From a bacterium (GTDB taxonomy: Bacteria; Elusimicrobiota; Elusimicrobia; Elusimicrobiales; UBA9959), in NCBI GenBank assembly GCA_021811315.1, contig JAJZPF010000013.1, forward strand, positions 1-64,000: DNA of 64,000 bases, written 5' to 3'. The position numbers and the translations under genes are program-made. This document shows, piece by piece, positions 3,684-60,188 of the stretch; within the stretch, counting starts at the first letter, position 1; the number at the start of each line of letters is the position of its first letter. The notes beneath the pieces were generated by a model. It was not told the origin of the DNA, searched no databases, and was given only the letters and a program-made list of their open reading frames with translations.

Positions 3684-3695
3684 GGTTCGGACGCC

Positions 3696-3807
3696 ACAGG
3701 GGCCGGAACGCAAAACGCGGTCGGCCACACCGTGGCCTCCCTCCTCTCTCGGCCTCGGCGCGATGCAAGCCTCGGCCTCAAGAAGGTTTTGCTAACCCGG
3801 CCCCTGT
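3696..3807 (+). repeat. Structured palindromic repeat, copy A
   Basis: This non-coding element fills most of the sdhB-fumarase gap. Its ends form a perfect 11-bp inverted repeat, ACAGGGGCCGG (3696-3706) with CCGGCCCCTGT (3797-3807). Inside lie GCAAAAC (3710-3716) paired with GTTTTGC (3786-3792), and a hairpin GGCCAC (3723-3728)/GTGGCC (3732-3737). Two related copies sit at 55633-55748 and, inverted, at 56473-56610. Stem positions differ between copies in paired fashion, which suggests that the fold is what is conserved. Confidence 0.8.
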
Positions 3808-3845
3808 GTCATCCTCCAGGGTTACATAGAATGAAAGGACTATCC

Positions 3846-6177: not shown

Positions 6178-6608
6178 AAAGCTCCGAAGGGTTCACGCTG
6201 ATAGAACTGATGACGGTAGTCGCCATAATCGCCATACTCGCGGTGATAGCCATGCCGCGCTTCGCCGGCCTGCTCAATAAAAGCAAAGAAGGCTCCACCC
6301 GCGAAGGTCTCGGCGCGATCCGCTCCACCCTGCACATTTATTACGGGGACAATATGATCTACCCCTACGACGACCTGTCTTCCCTGACGCAGAACGGGCG
6401 CTATATCAGCCAGATACCGTACGCAAAACTGCCCGGAACCCCTCATATGGACAACCGGAATATAAGCGTAGGGGCCAGCACCGGAACGGCGCTTACGGAC
6501 TCCGGGGGCTGGGCCTATGTTAACGACCCGGATTCCACGGCCTACGGAACCTTCATGGTAAACTGCACTCATCTCGACCTGAACGGCAATACCTGGAACG
6601 TGCAATAA
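6174..6608 (+). CDS. Type IV pilin-like / pseudopilin protein
   Basis: The N-terminus is a classic class III prepilin signal: a short leader MKSSEG, then FTLIELMTVVAIIAILAVIAM with Glu at mature position +5. A prepilin peptidase would cleave after Gly6. The 144-residue protein has a small globular part ending in a TDSGGWAY...DPDSTAYGTFMVNCTH motif. The same C-terminal module appears in the ORF at 55805-56452. No pilus assembly genes are nearby, so it may be a stand-alone pseudopilin using machinery encoded elsewhere. It overlaps the ankyrin lipoprotein gene by four bases. Confidence 0.88.
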   Translation: MKSSEGFTLIELMTVVAIIAILAVIAMPRFAGLLNKSKEGSTREGLGAIRSTLHIYYGDNMIYPYDDLSSLTQNGRYISQIPYAKLPGTPHMDNRNISVGASTGTALTDSGGWAYVNDPDSTAYGTFMVNCTHLDLNGNTWNVQ

Positions 6609-17990: not shown

Positions 17991-18034
17991 GAGCTTCCGG
18001 GCGGCGGTTTTTATTTTATGTTAGAATATTAATA

Positions 18035-18124
18035 TCGGGGAGCTTGGTAGTCACCAGGCTGAGAATTCCGGTGTTGCCGGAAGACCCTTATAACTTGAAC
18101 TGGGTAATGCCAGCGGAGGGAAAA
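18035..18124 (+). ncRNA. TPP riboswitch (THI box)
   Basis: The conserved blocks are all present in order: CGGGGAGC at the 5' side, GGCTGAGA, the ACCCTTATAACTTGAAC core, and TGGGTAATGCCAGCGGAGGGAA at the 3' side, the last interrupted only by its normal variable bases. It precedes thiC and would shut the operon off when thiamine diphosphate is plentiful. A terminator hairpin follows 24 bases later. Confidence 0.95.
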
Positions 18125-18147
18125 TGAAAGGGTCCACATATATATTT

Positions 18148-54102: not shown

Positions 54103-55493
54103 TTTGTCCTTTTTTTAAGCTGCTTTACCACCTGCCGTGCGCGCGCTATGGCAAGCGCGCCGCCCGGGACGTCCTCCGTTATGGTAGATCCGGCGGCCGT
54201 ATAAGCGCCGGCCCCGATAGTTACCGGGGCCACCAGATTGGTGTTGGAGCCGATGAAAGCGCCGGCCCCGATGACGGTCCTGTTCTTGTTGACCCCGTCG
54301 TAATTGCAGGTGATGGTGCCCGCGCCGATATTGACTTTCTCGCCCATCTCGGTGTCGCCGATATAGCTGTGGTGGTGCATCTTGGAGCCGGCGCCCAGGA
54401 CGGACTTTTTTACCTCGGCGAAATTCCCTACTTCGGCGCGGGGGCCGATGTCGGAAAGGGGGCGGAGGCGGGCGAAGGGGCCGACGATAGCGCCGGCGCG
54501 CACGCGGCTGGATTCCAGCGCGCAGGAGTATTTTATGACGGCGCCGTCGTCGATGCGGCAGTCCTCGATGACGCCGGCGGGGCCTATTTTGCAGCCGCGG
54601 CCGATGGAGGAGACGCCTTTTATGAAGACGCCGGGATAGATGACGGTGTCGCGGCCGATGACGGTGTTCTCTTCTATATAGGTATTGGAGGGGTCGACGA
54701 CGGTGACGCCGGAAGCCATCAGTTCGGCGGCCTTGCGCCGGTTGAGCATGGTGTAGGCGGCGGCGAGGTCGCCGCGGGAATTTATGCCGGTCATCTCGGT
54801 GGGGTCGGTGAGGCGGAAGGCGAGGGCCCTGCCGCCGGCGGTTATGATGTTTTCTACGGCGTCGGTGAGGTAGAATTCGCCTTTGGAGCCTTTTTTCTTG
54901 AGGTTCTTGACGGCTTTTTCGAGGCTTTTTACGTTGAAGAAGTAGGTTCCTGAATTGACTTCGCGGATGGCGAGCTCCCAGGAGTCGGCGTCGGCGGCCT
55001 CTACGATGGCGGCTACGTCGCCGGCGTGGTTGCGTTTTACGCGGCCGTAGGAGCCGGGCTCGGAGAGGTCGGCGGTCATGACGAGGCAGTCGGGGGAATG
55101 CTTTAAATAGTAGCCGAGCATTTTCTTTACGGTCTCGACCCGGAACAGGGGGGCGTCGCCGCAGAGGACCATTACGTTGGCGTGCTTGCGTATCTGCGGC
55201 ATGGCTTCCTGCACGGCGCGGCCGCTGCCTTTAAGGAGCTTCTGGCGGACGAAAACTATTTTCCCGAAGATGGCGGCTCCCAGTCTCTTGGAGAGTTCGG
55301 CTTCGACGAGGTCGGCGCCGTGGCCGGTGATGATTATTATTTTTTCGGGCCCGAGGACGGCTATTTTACGGACGGCCCGTTCGATGAGGGACATGTCGCC
55401 GAGGTAATGGAGGACTTTGGGGAGGTCGGACTGCATGCGCGTGCCAAGGCCGGCCGCCAGTACCACCGCCGCGAAACTTTTGTTTTTAGGCAT
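54099..55493 (-). CDS. glmU: Bifunctional GlmU: GlcNAc-1-phosphate uridylyltransferase and GlcN-1-P acetyltransferase
   Basis: GlmU makes UDP-N-acetylglucosamine for peptidoglycan and LPS. The 464-residue protein has the uridylyltransferase start VVLAAGLGTRMQSDLPKVLHYLG, GDAPLF and VNSGTYFF, then the left-handed beta-helix with YSCALESSRVRAGAIVGPFARLRP, SYIGDTEMGEKVNIGAGTITCNYDG and TNLVAPVTIGAGAYTAAGSTITEDVP. Both catalytic parts are intact. The UDP-GlcNAc may also feed the polysaccharide system. Confidence 0.97.
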   Translation of the reverse strand: MPKNKSFAAVVLAAGLGTRMQSDLPKVLHYLGDMSLIERAVRKIAVLGPEKIIIITGHGADLVEAELSKRLGAAIFGKIVFVRQKLLKGSGRAVQEAMPQIRKHANVMVLCGDAPLFRVETVKKMLGYYLKHSPDCLVMTADLSEPGSYGRVKRNHAGDVAAIVEAADADSWELAIREVNSGTYFFNVKSLEKAVKNLKKKGSKGEFYLTDAVENIITAGGRALAFRLTDPTEMTGINSRGDLAAAYTMLNRRKAAELMASGVTVVDPSNTYIEENTVIGRDTVIYPGVFIKGVSSIGRGCKIGPAGVIEDCRIDDGAVIKYSCALESSRVRAGAIVGPFARLRPLSDIGPRAEVGNFAEVKKSVLGAGSKMHHHSYIGDTEMGEKVNIGAGTITCNYDGVNKNRTVIGAGAFIGSNTNLVAPVTIGAGAYTAAGSTITEDVPGGALAIARARQVVKQLKKRTK

Positions 55494-55632
55494 AGTATTT
55501 AGAAAGAAAACTGAGAAAATCTAAGAAACGGATAGGACTACCCCTAAATTCTACAAAAATAGCCGCCTTCGGCGCTACGTAATGCTTATATCGAGGCTCA
55601 ACCTCAATAAGAAAGGGTTCGCGGGGCCTGTC

Positions 55633-55748
55633 GGGGGACCGGAACGCAAAACCGGCGTCGCGCACACCGTGCGCGCGCCTGCCGCTCTCGGCCTCGGCGC
55701 TTACGCAAGCCTCGGCCTCCGAGGGGCTTTTGCTTATCCGGCTCCCCC
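55633..55748 (+). repeat. Structured palindromic repeat, copy B
   Basis: This copy lies between glmU and the GIY-YIG/pilin-domain ORF. The ends GGGGGACCGG (55633-55642) and CCGGCTCCCCC (55738-55748) pair with one bulge. GCAAAA (55646-55651) pairs with TTTTGC (55728-55733). The inner hairpin is CGCGCAC (55659-55665)/GTGCGCG (55669-55675) with loop ACC, where copy A has GGCCAC/GTGGCC with the same loop. It is nearly identical in its core to copy C, which lies inverted on the other side of the ORF. The rest of the 55494-55804 gap shows no gene. Confidence 0.8.
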
Positions 55749-55804
55749 GCCACCCGCTCCTAAAGGAATGCGGAGCTGATTTTTTTAAGACAGGCTCCTG
55801 ACTA

Positions 55805-56452
55805 TTAGGTTTTGCAAAGGTCCTGCGATTTGAATTTATGAGAACAGTTTAGAACTACTGTTCCGTACAGTTTAGAGTCTGGGTTAGAGAAATATAACCA
55901 ACCACCGGTATCCGTTACGAATTGTTCGATGTTTTTGTTTTGGACGTCAATAACTTCAAAGATAGAAGCTGTTTTGGAATGGCCGGGCAGATCAATGGTT
56001 GGAATCTGATTTAGATATTTAGGCAACAAATCGCGGAGTCTGGCCGGGAATTTGCCATTAGTATCGGTTTTATAAACCTCCAAAGCACTTCTGATTGCAT
56101 GAAGGCAGGCTATAGCGCCTCGGCAGCGCTCGACGTCAGTATGTGGCACTCTCATGATTCCTCCTGATTTCGCCTGTGACAACTCTTGCCGGTTAATTAA
56201 AGCGTCTTTCTCTTTGCGGGAAAGCTTCTTGATAGCGGCTTCAAGGATTGAAGCCGCGGACCTGTCTTTTTTTCTCTTCTTCCAGACCAACTCCACCGGC
56301 CCGAAAGCGGCTGTATATTTGGCGCCTTTGCCGGAATTATGGTCGGCAATCCGCCCGGCTAGGTTATTAGTTATCCCGGTATATAAGGAACCATTGGTGC
56401 AACGGACAATGTAAACTGTCCATAATTTAGTTTTTGAAGAAGCGGCAGGCAT
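55805..56452 (-). CDS. GIY-YIG domain joined to a pilin-like globular domain
   Basis: Residues 1 to about 99 form a complete small GIY-YIG protein of the UPF0213/YhbQ type (WTVYIVRCTNGSLYTGITNNLAGRIADHN, GKGAKYTAAFGPVELVW, EAAIKKLSRKEKDALI). Residues 100-215 lack any pilin signal helix but match the globular end of the pilin-like protein at 6174-6608: AIRSALEVYKTDTNGKFPARL, IPTIDLPG and TDTGGWLYFSNPDSKLYGTVVLNCSH. An in-frame ATG at 56155 has a perfect AGGAGG 4 bases upstream, so the second half could also be made alone. The ORF is AT-richer than its neighbours and lies between inverted copies of the structured repeat. Confidence 0.75.
   Translation of the reverse strand: MPAASSKTKLWTVYIVRCTNGSLYTGITNNLAGRIADHNSGKGAKYTAAFGPVELVWKKRKKDRSAASILEAAIKKLSRKEKDALINRQELSQAKSGGIMRVPHTDVERCRGAIACLHAIRSALEVYKTDTNGKFPARLRDLLPKYLNQIPTIDLPGHSKTASIFEVIDVQNKNIEQFVTDTGGWLYFSNPDSKLYGTVVLNCSHKFKSQDLCKT
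56153..56165 (-). promoter_or_regulatory. Internal ribosome binding site and start within the GIY-YIG/pilin-domain ORF
   Basis: AGGAGG (56165-56160) lies 4 bases before an in-frame ATG (56155-56153) at the junction of the two domains. It would give a separate 116-residue pilin-domain product (55805-56155) starting MRVPHTDVERCRGAIAC. By contrast the first ATG of the ORF at 56452 has no clear ribosome binding site. Confidence 0.6.
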
Positions 56453-56472
56453 AGTAGTTGGAGCGGGCGGCG

Positions 56473-56610
56473 ATGGGACCGGGTTAGCAAAAGCCCCTCG
56501 GAGGCTGAGGCTTGCGTAAGCGCCGAAGCCGGGTGGCCGCCCCGGCCACTGCAGTGAGCGGCAGGCGCGCGCACGGTGTGCGCGACGCCGGTTTTGCGTT
56601 CCGGTCCCAT
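56473..56610 (-). repeat. Structured palindromic repeat, copy C
   Basis: The ends form a perfect 10-bp inverted repeat, ATGGGACCGG (56473-56482) with CCGGTCCCAT (56601-56610). GCAAAA (56487-56492) pairs with TTTTGC (56592-56597), and the inner hairpin is CGCGCAC (56568-56574)/GTGCGCG (56578-56584). Relative to copy B it is inverted and has an extra segment near 56530-56555 that carries its own small palindrome CACTGCAGTG. It lies upstream of the GIY-YIG ORF and about 110 bp from tRNA-Gln. Confidence 0.8.
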
Positions 56611-56720
56611 TGACGCCCGCGAACTTGCAGGCCTGCCGTTACCTTAATTATTAAGCTCTGGCAGATTTCGCTTCGCGAAGCAGCCACAGTGTCCGTAGTT
56701 ACGCAGGATAGCAAAGTCCA

Positions 56721-56791
56721 CTCCCGGGCATGGATTCGAACCATGACTGACCGCGTCAAAGGCGGTTGTGCTACCGTTACACCACCCGGGA
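56721..56791 (-). tRNA. tRNA-Gln (anticodon TTG)
   Basis: A 71-nt cloverleaf is read on the minus strand. The acceptor stem is TCCCGGG/CCCGGGA with discriminator G, the anticodon stem CCGC/GCGG encloses the loop CTTTGAC with anticodon TTG, and the T arm is ATGG-TTCGAAT-CCAT. CCA is not encoded. The structured repeat and the GIY-YIG ORF lie just downstream, on its 3' side. Confidence 0.92.
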
Positions 56792-56814
56792 ATAAAACTT
56801 AAAAACTATACAGC

Positions 56815-56847
56815 ACGAAAACCCTTCCCGCGTCCCGCGGGAAGGGT
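56815..56847 (-). terminator. Terminator of spoVG
   Basis: CCCTTCCCGC (56822-56831) pairs with GCGGGAAGGG (56837-56846) around a short loop, followed on the minus strand by TTTT. It lies about 22 bp after the spoVG stop codon, before tRNA-Gln. Confidence 0.8.
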
Positions 56848-56868
56848 GTGAACCTTGCCGCAATCGGG

Positions 56869-57177
56869 TTAGACGCCTTCGGCGAAGCCCTCGGTTTGGG
56901 TCGGGACCGGCAAGGGGCCGGCCTTCGCCATCTCTTTCTCGTACTCCTTGAGAATGAGCTGCTCGAGCACCCCGCGGAACTCGTTGTTTATAGGATGGGC
57001 TATATCCTTATAAGTTCCGTCCTTGATCTTCCTGGACGGCATGCACACGATAAGCCCGTTATTTCCGCTAACTACCTTCATGTTGTGAACCACAAAGGCA
57101 TTATCAAAGGTAACAGTGGCGAAAGCCTTAAGGCGTGCCTCGTTCCTGAGATGTATTCTAACTTCGGTGATTTCCAT
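56869..57177 (-). CDS. spoVG: SpoVG family RNA/DNA-binding regulator
   Basis: The 102-residue protein matches SpoVG along its length: MEITEVRIHLRNEARLKAFATVTFDNAFVVHNMKVV, then GLIVCMPSRKIKDGTYKDIAHPINNEFR. It is a small nucleic-acid-binding regulator kept in many non-sporulating bacteria; targets here are unknown. GGGGGAACAGT precedes the ATG. The 100-bp leader has a perfect ATCCGGC...GCCGGAT hairpin (about 57208-57226). It follows ispE, an order also seen in Gram-positive bacteria. Confidence 0.95.
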   Translation of the reverse strand: MEITEVRIHLRNEARLKAFATVTFDNAFVVHNMKVVSGNNGLIVCMPSRKIKDGTYKDIAHPINNEFRGVLEQLILKEYEKEMAKAGPLPVPTQTEGFAEGV

Positions 57178-59994: not shown

Positions 59995-60022
59995 GGGAAA
60001 GCAAATATTATTTTGCTTTCCC
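59995..60022 (-). terminator. Terminator after the TPR gene
   Basis: GGGAAAGCAAA (59995-60005) pairs with TTTGCTTTCCC (60012-60022). On the minus strand six Ts follow. It lies about 170 bp downstream of the TPR protein's stop and directly in front of the 59379-59960 gene. Confidence 0.85.
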
Positions 60023-60035
60023 TGGATACACCGGA

Positions 60036-60188
60036 TTACGGTCCGGTCGTGGATACTCCTGGGCCAATCCCCAGAATTACAAGGCTGCTTCTTCTACAGT
60101 CATAGCATACCCTGTAAGACTTGACGGAACAAGGGCAGTAAGGGAAGCCACTGTATGGACCAAAGGACCTAAACCAGTCCGTTGATGC
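60036..60188 (-). other. Open in-frame extension after the TPR stop codon
   Basis: Following the TAG at 60189-60191 the same frame stays open for 50 codons (ASTDWFRSFGPYSGFPYCPC... ending VSTTGP). It has four cysteines in CPC and CYDC but no start codon. It could be the remains of a longer C-terminus or a chance open stretch. The rest of the 59961-60188 gap holds only a terminator. Confidence 0.25.

Follow-up and report, generated by a model that had tools for sequence, protein, structure and literature searches.

Among the described repeats closest to the elements reported here are the GTAG-tagged REPs that are accompanied by a RAYT, and the REPINs that they form. Both groups consist of dispersed palindromes that occur in inverted dimers with a spacer, both carry a tag 5′ of the hairpin and conserved mismatches in the stem, and for both, as a proposal in our case, recognition is of folded single-stranded DNA. 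PMC8266576 describes TnpA-REP as reading the bulges of its hairpin, which the retained mismatches of the present units resemble. With bacterial MITEs, these units share a non-autonomous character, a high copy number, and dimers of a few hundred base pairs with terminal inverted repeats. We consider it likely that the palindromes described below form a non-autonomous, REPIN- or MITE-like family of mobile DNA repeats, moved in trans by a putative enzyme.

The window, by which we mean the whole stretch of 64,000 nt that was analysed, holds three such palindromes. They and their arms lie exactly where a preliminary description had put them, with the third copy inverted. Copy 1 (3696..3807, + strand) occupies the gap between an sdhB-like gene and a fumarase gene, with outer arms at 3696-3706 and 3797-3807. 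Copy 2 (55615..55760, +), whose core had been given as 55633-55748, continues to pair beyond those ends through shell arms at 55615-55632 and 55749-55760; these arms are common to the orthologue in genome G006 and similar to those of copies in other genera. Copy 3 (56473..56610, −) lies between a GIY-YIG gene and a tRNA-Gln gene. A covariance model, R1, built from 26 copies, matches the three at 3686-3819 (133.7 bits), 55623-55760 (130.8 bits), and 56460-56621 (92.9 bits), respectively.

When aligned and folded as DNA, the three copies display a common plan: an outer stem, an internal loop, a GCAAAA/TTTTGC helix, and two inner hairpins, P2 and P3. The internal loop reads AAC on the left and TAAC on the right, except in copy 2, where the right side is TTAT. 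P2 has the loop ACC in the window copies and reads GGCCAC-ACC-GTGGCC in copy 1 (3723..3737, +) and GCGCAC-ACC-GTGCGC in copy 2 (55660..55674, +). P3, which had gone unmentioned, spans 3751..3777 (+) in copy 1, with GATGCAA in the loop region, and 55690..55717 (+) in copy 2, where the loop region contains CTTACGCAAG and the stem is interrupted by a tandem TC/TC mismatch; the loop TTACGCAA is found in copies 2 and 3. Also new are the extended shell of copy 2, a bulge within its outer stem, and an additional 24-nt hairpin of copy 3 (56532..56555, −; ACTGCAGTG...CACC), which replaces one T of the P3 stem. The unit is a branched palindrome of 110–140 nt whose outer stem varies between copies. In DNA folding, each window copy beats 200 of 200 of its own dinucleotide shuffles, and the z-scores of copies 1, 2, and 3 are −3.24, −5.93, and −5.32.

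A covariance-model search of the genome and its relatives, as suggested in the preliminary description, recovered further copies in both. In the host genome, blastn with copy 2 as the query returned 50 matches at E up to 1, itself included, the weakest two being 18-nt pieces, and R1 gave 90 matches at E up to 0.001 and 99 at E up to 0.1, four of these last being opposite-strand echoes. Copies dispersed in such numbers (50 by blastn, 90 by the model) exclude chance. The host assembly comprises 2.67 Mb and is 63% complete, and some copies sit at contig ends, as expected of repeats that break assemblies. Across the genus, 32 of 32 genomes are positive, with 7–98 matches each among the 102 candidates scored per genome. 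The phylum was sampled evenly with 198 genomes and stricter filters: 12 are positive, all of them in family f1 and in 4 of 64 genera, while six other listed genomes of that family have no unit; by blastn outside the genus, the repeat was found in one of five other-genus members of the family and in none of 24 members of another family. A DNA-pattern scan of named genomes yielded at least 113 stretches, and among the 80 matches listed, 70 are titled Elusimicrobia or similar and 10 “bacterium” alone. The palindromes are members of a dispersed repeat family, which we observed in a single family of Elusimicrobiota. In the literature on palindromic, intergenic, miniature inverted, or REP repeats of Elusimicrobia, we found no recognisable description of them, and one candidate paper turned out to concern CRISPR.

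Orthologous sites may carry a unit or lack it. The sdhB–fumarase gap holds one in 21 of 30 loci of the genus, oriented one way in 12, the other way in 6, and both ways in 3 (L143, L147, with one copy partly masked, and L150). Nine loci are without a model match; two of these stop at a contig edge (L137, L142), three hold another gene (L158-L160), and one resembles a decayed copy (L162). In the glmU/GIY-YIG/tRNA-Gln region, a unit is present in 13 of 29 loci, and a host composite of about 317 nt compares with 18 nt at the orthologous site in L297. The neighbours of 142 hits at 113 loci were surveyed with crude ORF calling. Once 57 hits are left out for sharing more than 40 nt with a naive ORF, 85 remain, of which 41 lie between tandem ORFs, 18 between convergent, and 11 between divergent ones. 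Between tandem ORFs, 19 units run with transcription and 22 against it. Inspection of 11 stretches by eye revealed no evident target-site duplication; the genomes compared are species representatives, so no recent transposition is caught. The REP-like character suggested earlier is borne out by the dispersal, the often intergenic location, the frequent inverted pairs, and the presence or absence at orthologous sites.

The preliminary description had observed that both arms of the stems change together. This was followed in an alignment, A3, of 120 rows from 99 chosen loci, from which 12 identical rows were removed to leave 108 distinct copies; since it was fitted to the covariance model, it is biased toward the structure of that model. 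The further copies are also paired, with two-sided changes at 34 of 38 pairs. The cells with two-sided changes number 561, as against a shuffled mean of 148, with 0 of 500 shuffles as high, and against at most 130 for slid structures. With helix 4, the outer P3 helix (columns 171-175 / 258-262), set aside, pairing is almost purely Watson–Crick: 3477 cells contain 10 G-T and 55 A-C combinations. Helix 4 itself is 72% paired and contains 56 of the 66 G-T cells that are counted when it is included (3999 cells). Stepwise change through wobble pairs would favour differences of the transition type; among two-sided differences from the commonest pair, 261 flips and 102 transversions (363) outnumber the 170 of that type. 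The unpaired bases, too, are conserved. The most constant are the TC before P2 (104 of 108 copies), the ACC loop, TA and AA in the P3 loop, and the TC after P3, and the AAC/TAAC internal loop is among the conserved elements. TC...TC brackets enclose the P3 mid stem in 90 of 108 copies, the P3 inner stem in 73, and P2 in 29.

Template switching is said, in one study, to homogenise the arms of inverted repeats. If the arms of these repeats were corrected in this way at replication, as quasipalindromes, then the repeats would be relics, with no selection or enzyme acting on the fold. Such correction accounts for arms that change together, for the scarcity of wobble or mismatched intermediates, and for the many flips; it also fits the outer P2 arms of host copies, four bp long, which change together while the inner hairpin that they enclose stays identical. 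However, it should erase conserved mismatches and internal loops, and the TC brackets of P3 are kept. That mismatches persist speaks against arm correction alone, which also leaves the dispersed copies, the tags, and the inverted dimers unexplained. We regard arm correction as a possible but somewhat unlikely account of the paired changes.

The differences between copies are in part differences of whole modules. When the window is compared with G006 at an orthologous site, the shell is common and P2 and P3 are different in each of their arms, and in G019 the orthologous site contains another interior inside the same outermost stem. Two loci of genome G014, L401 and L402, have unrelated flanks and a near-identical tag, shell, linker, and second half; they differ in P2 and P3, between GCAAAA and TTTTGC. 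Among 173 distinct extracted units, 25 pairs share identical 26-nt arms, a set outside which L401/L402 falls, as its arm pattern is delimited in another way. The interiors of the 25 pairs are identical in 2, at least 0.9 similar in 15, and below 0.9 in 8 (4 of them below 0.8); at least three of these eight involve a small inserted hairpin. One same-shell pair consists of L019, with a small hairpin insert in P2, and L372, which is without it. Among the 50 host copies, a four-combination test succeeded three times for shell and P2, once for shell and P3, and once for P2 and P3; shells, P2, and P3 reassort. Inner hairpins can thus differ within an identical shell, and part of what looked like compensation is the difference of a whole module. 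The changes are paired, as had been described, but the argument from them to selection for the fold is weakened.

A hairpin of 22–25 nt, of the form ACTGCAGTG-hairpin-CACC or GCATTG-hairpin-CCAC, occurs in L017, L019, L030, and L254 and in the window at 56532-56555, where it replaces the T of TC[T]CG within P2 or P3. It may be a further mobile palindrome, smaller than the main one and nested within it.

As to how a mobile DNA family of this kind would work, we propose that recognition is of the unit folded in single-stranded DNA, which replication would probably expose, and that a putative enzyme supplied in trans reads its unpaired bases. Paralogous copies would swap interiors through recombination across the GCAAAA/TTTTGC helix that they share or, as an alternative route, by template switching. 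Any host function, for example in termination or mRNA stability, may be incidental. It is tempting to go further and to regard the units as self-nesting mobile hairpins, built by the repeated placement of TC...TC-bracketed hairpins inside others, with a putative enzyme acting on folded single-stranded DNA that would move units and exchange interiors as cassettes while the shell stays; this elaboration seems to us rather doubtful.

One shell class is preceded by a terminal tag near CCGCGAGATGNNNAGTC. In the most complete forms, which are inverted dimers of about 320–440 bp, the tag stands at both outer ends and CTCC faces the linker. Many copies are single units, or are tagged at one end, or are untagged, and the tag is absent from all three window copies. 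The host has 20 exact tags. A model match directly adjoins 16 of them, a partial match is found within 65 nt of another 3, and a different palindrome adjoins the remaining one. Eight inverted tag pairs, 318–441 nt apart and with 0–2 mismatches in the tags, are found in G014 and G019 together, and the pairs examined mostly enclose two hairpins and a linker. When up to two mismatches are allowed, tags are hardly more frequent than a backward-read control in the host (37 versus 30) and G006 (18 versus 18), with 53 versus 35 in G019 and 34 versus 15 in G014, so only exact or near-exact tags are informative. A separate list of 53 tag matches also permits two mismatches, and at least three of its entries (L037, L063, L206) look like chance in coding DNA. 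At L268 and L131, a tag with two mismatches has no hairpin behind it, which raised the idea that the tag is a free-standing target site. This is unlikely, since 19 of the 20 exact host tags lie at a model match. The L268 tag is at a site orthologous to a host composite and is possibly the scar of a hairpin loss, and that of L131 may be due to chance. Another, unrelated class of palindrome (GGGAACCGTTGCG / GGAAACCGACGCAAGG) has a similar outer tag at L207, L038, L071, L231, and L400-L402; in the dimers of L400-L402, one hairpin is of this class and is the partner of the unit.

What, then, would move these units? A parent transposon was sought with the tags listed in four genomes. The candidate for an autonomous parent that we inspected, an inverted pair of tags separated by 6.5 kb in G019, was rejected: by reading, it is two dimers around four ordinary-looking genes. 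Among 129 neighbour ORFs of intergenic hits, we found no transposase or recombinase beside the units and no recurring neighbour family beyond small clusters, the largest of which has six members and is ABC-ATPase-like by reading.

A RAYT-type transposase had been named as a possible partner. Y1_Tnp matches, 86 in total, do occur in 27 of 32 genus genomes, and REPINs have a similar inverted-dimer layout, so it has to be considered that their Y1 (RAYT-type) transposases move the units as a REP family. Against it, no unit was found at the 31 Y1_Tnp loci examined of the 86, up to about 1.5 kb away or as far as the contig reaches, and the suggested link is thus not borne out at these loci. Moreover, 24–53 units are present in each of five genomes in which Y1_Tnp gave no match at E up to 0.001, and the GTAG tag is absent. 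Many Y1_Tnp loci (L167-L193) have inverted repeats of their own, often of the GGGGACAG type, and in this respect resemble the TIR-flanked transposases described in PMC3733652. Movement by these Y1 enzymes is, in our opinion, improbable. Separately, L133 has a short element with GGGGACAG-like ends between its GIY-YIG and tRNA-Gln genes.

The preliminary description left a choice between a folded RNA and a DNA cruciform. A structured RNA, be it a small RNA, a riboswitch-like leader, or a transcription or mRNA-stability element kept by RNA folding, would agree with the covariation of 34 of 38 pairs, with the position of some copies between same-strand genes such as sdhB and fumarase, and with eight terminator-like matches in 55400-56900 (shuffle mean 2.7), although several of these are inside the GIY-YIG gene. 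However, the 10 G-U cells among 3477 outside helix 4 compare with 59 G-U cells among the 388 paired cells (15%) of TPP riboswitches from the genus, represented by 15 sequences, a control that is far more conserved, has G-U in 4 of 26 pairs, and is not matched to the units in divergence. In addition, the orientation is unbiased, with both orientations within one gene gap, and the units are missing from many orthologous gaps. Rfam at its gathering cut-offs gave no match to the palindromes in a search of the whole window, and at E up to 1, nothing within 55600-56660; this agrees with the preliminary description, in which they were not recognised as a known REP, ERIC, or attC type. Near-strict Watson–Crick pairing and the occurrence of both orientations between co-directional genes point to DNA hairpins and not RNA. 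Of the earlier claim, then, the part that stands is that the arms are kept paired; with G-U near absent outside one weak helix and no bias in orientation, an RNA is quite improbable.

Two riboswitches were identified in the window with Rfam: a 2dG-II purine riboswitch aptamer at 60017-60087 (−; 82 bits) and a TPP riboswitch at 18026-18138 (+). In the genus, a search for the latter at E up to 0.001 was positive in 16 of 32 genomes, and in 10 of them the match is over the cut-off.

It is scarcely credible that the GIY-YIG nuclease encoded at 55805-56452 (−; PF01541) is the mobility gene of the element: it sits between two inverted copies, 2 and 3, but a GIY-YIG gene stands next to the glmU-like one at 25 of 29 loci, of which 12 lack a unit, and is thus a conserved neighbour, and P0001 has no second GIY-YIG match in the host assembly, at 63% completeness. 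This ORF has an extra C-terminal part, of which residues 115-206 match pilin-like places at other positions of the genome, among them 6309-6575 of the window; about 420 bp are missing from this part in G019. The extra part looks like a lineage-specific insertion or fusion.

As this family warns, abundant compensatory changes need not mean RNA; a near absence of G-U pairs together with no strand preference is what tells DNA hairpins from RNA. The family is REP-like and more complex than the REPs to which we compare it, and it offers a natural record of module differences inside fixed shells, as well as a well-populated system in which to seek whatever moves those REPs for which no RAYT is known.

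How do these units stand with respect to known systems? Integron attC sites have a complementary R-box pair, RYYYAAC / GTTRRRY. In the present units, inspection shows AAC on one side and TAAC on the other when a single strand is read. A structured RNA family would match a described family, have wobble pairs, and keep to one strand; here Rfam has no match, wobble pairs are nearly absent outside helix 4, and both orientations occur. The eight inverted tag pairs of G014 and G019 provide the terminal inverted repeats of a MITE. A parent transposon was not found at the one 6.5-kb tag pair inspected, target duplication was not evident in the 11 stretches viewed by eye, and the body consists of two branched hairpins. 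REPINs and GTAG REPs have a single hairpin of 20–40 nt, while the present units reach 110–140 nt and have two inner hairpins; the tag is, by reading, CCGCGAGATGNNNAGTC instead of GTAG; the cognate RAYT of a GTAG REP is flanked by the repeat, whereas here no RAYT is linked to a unit at 31 loci; and interiors vary inside a constant shell, in contrast to REPINs. The CGTC-tagged REP superfamily is similar in that, according to PMC3733652, it has no dedicated transposase known, a GTC-like motif lies 5′ of the hairpins, and some dimers are found inside longer palindromes. The same paper gives it a stem of 8–9 bp that starts with AT pairs, a loop of 4–5 nt, and a CCA tail, which are unmatched here: the P2 stem is GC-rich with the 3-nt loop ACC, and the right end is CTCC. 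As for its CGTC, TGTC, or CCTC tag, the outer tag of the present units ends in AGTC, and it is TC that precedes P2. The nesting of hairpins is like that of the GTAG-15 and H. neapolitanus CGTC-1 dimers, which are inserted in palindromes (PMC3733652); in the present family, however, the nesting is several levels deep, often takes the form TC-hairpin-TC, and comes with an interior that is variable within one shell.
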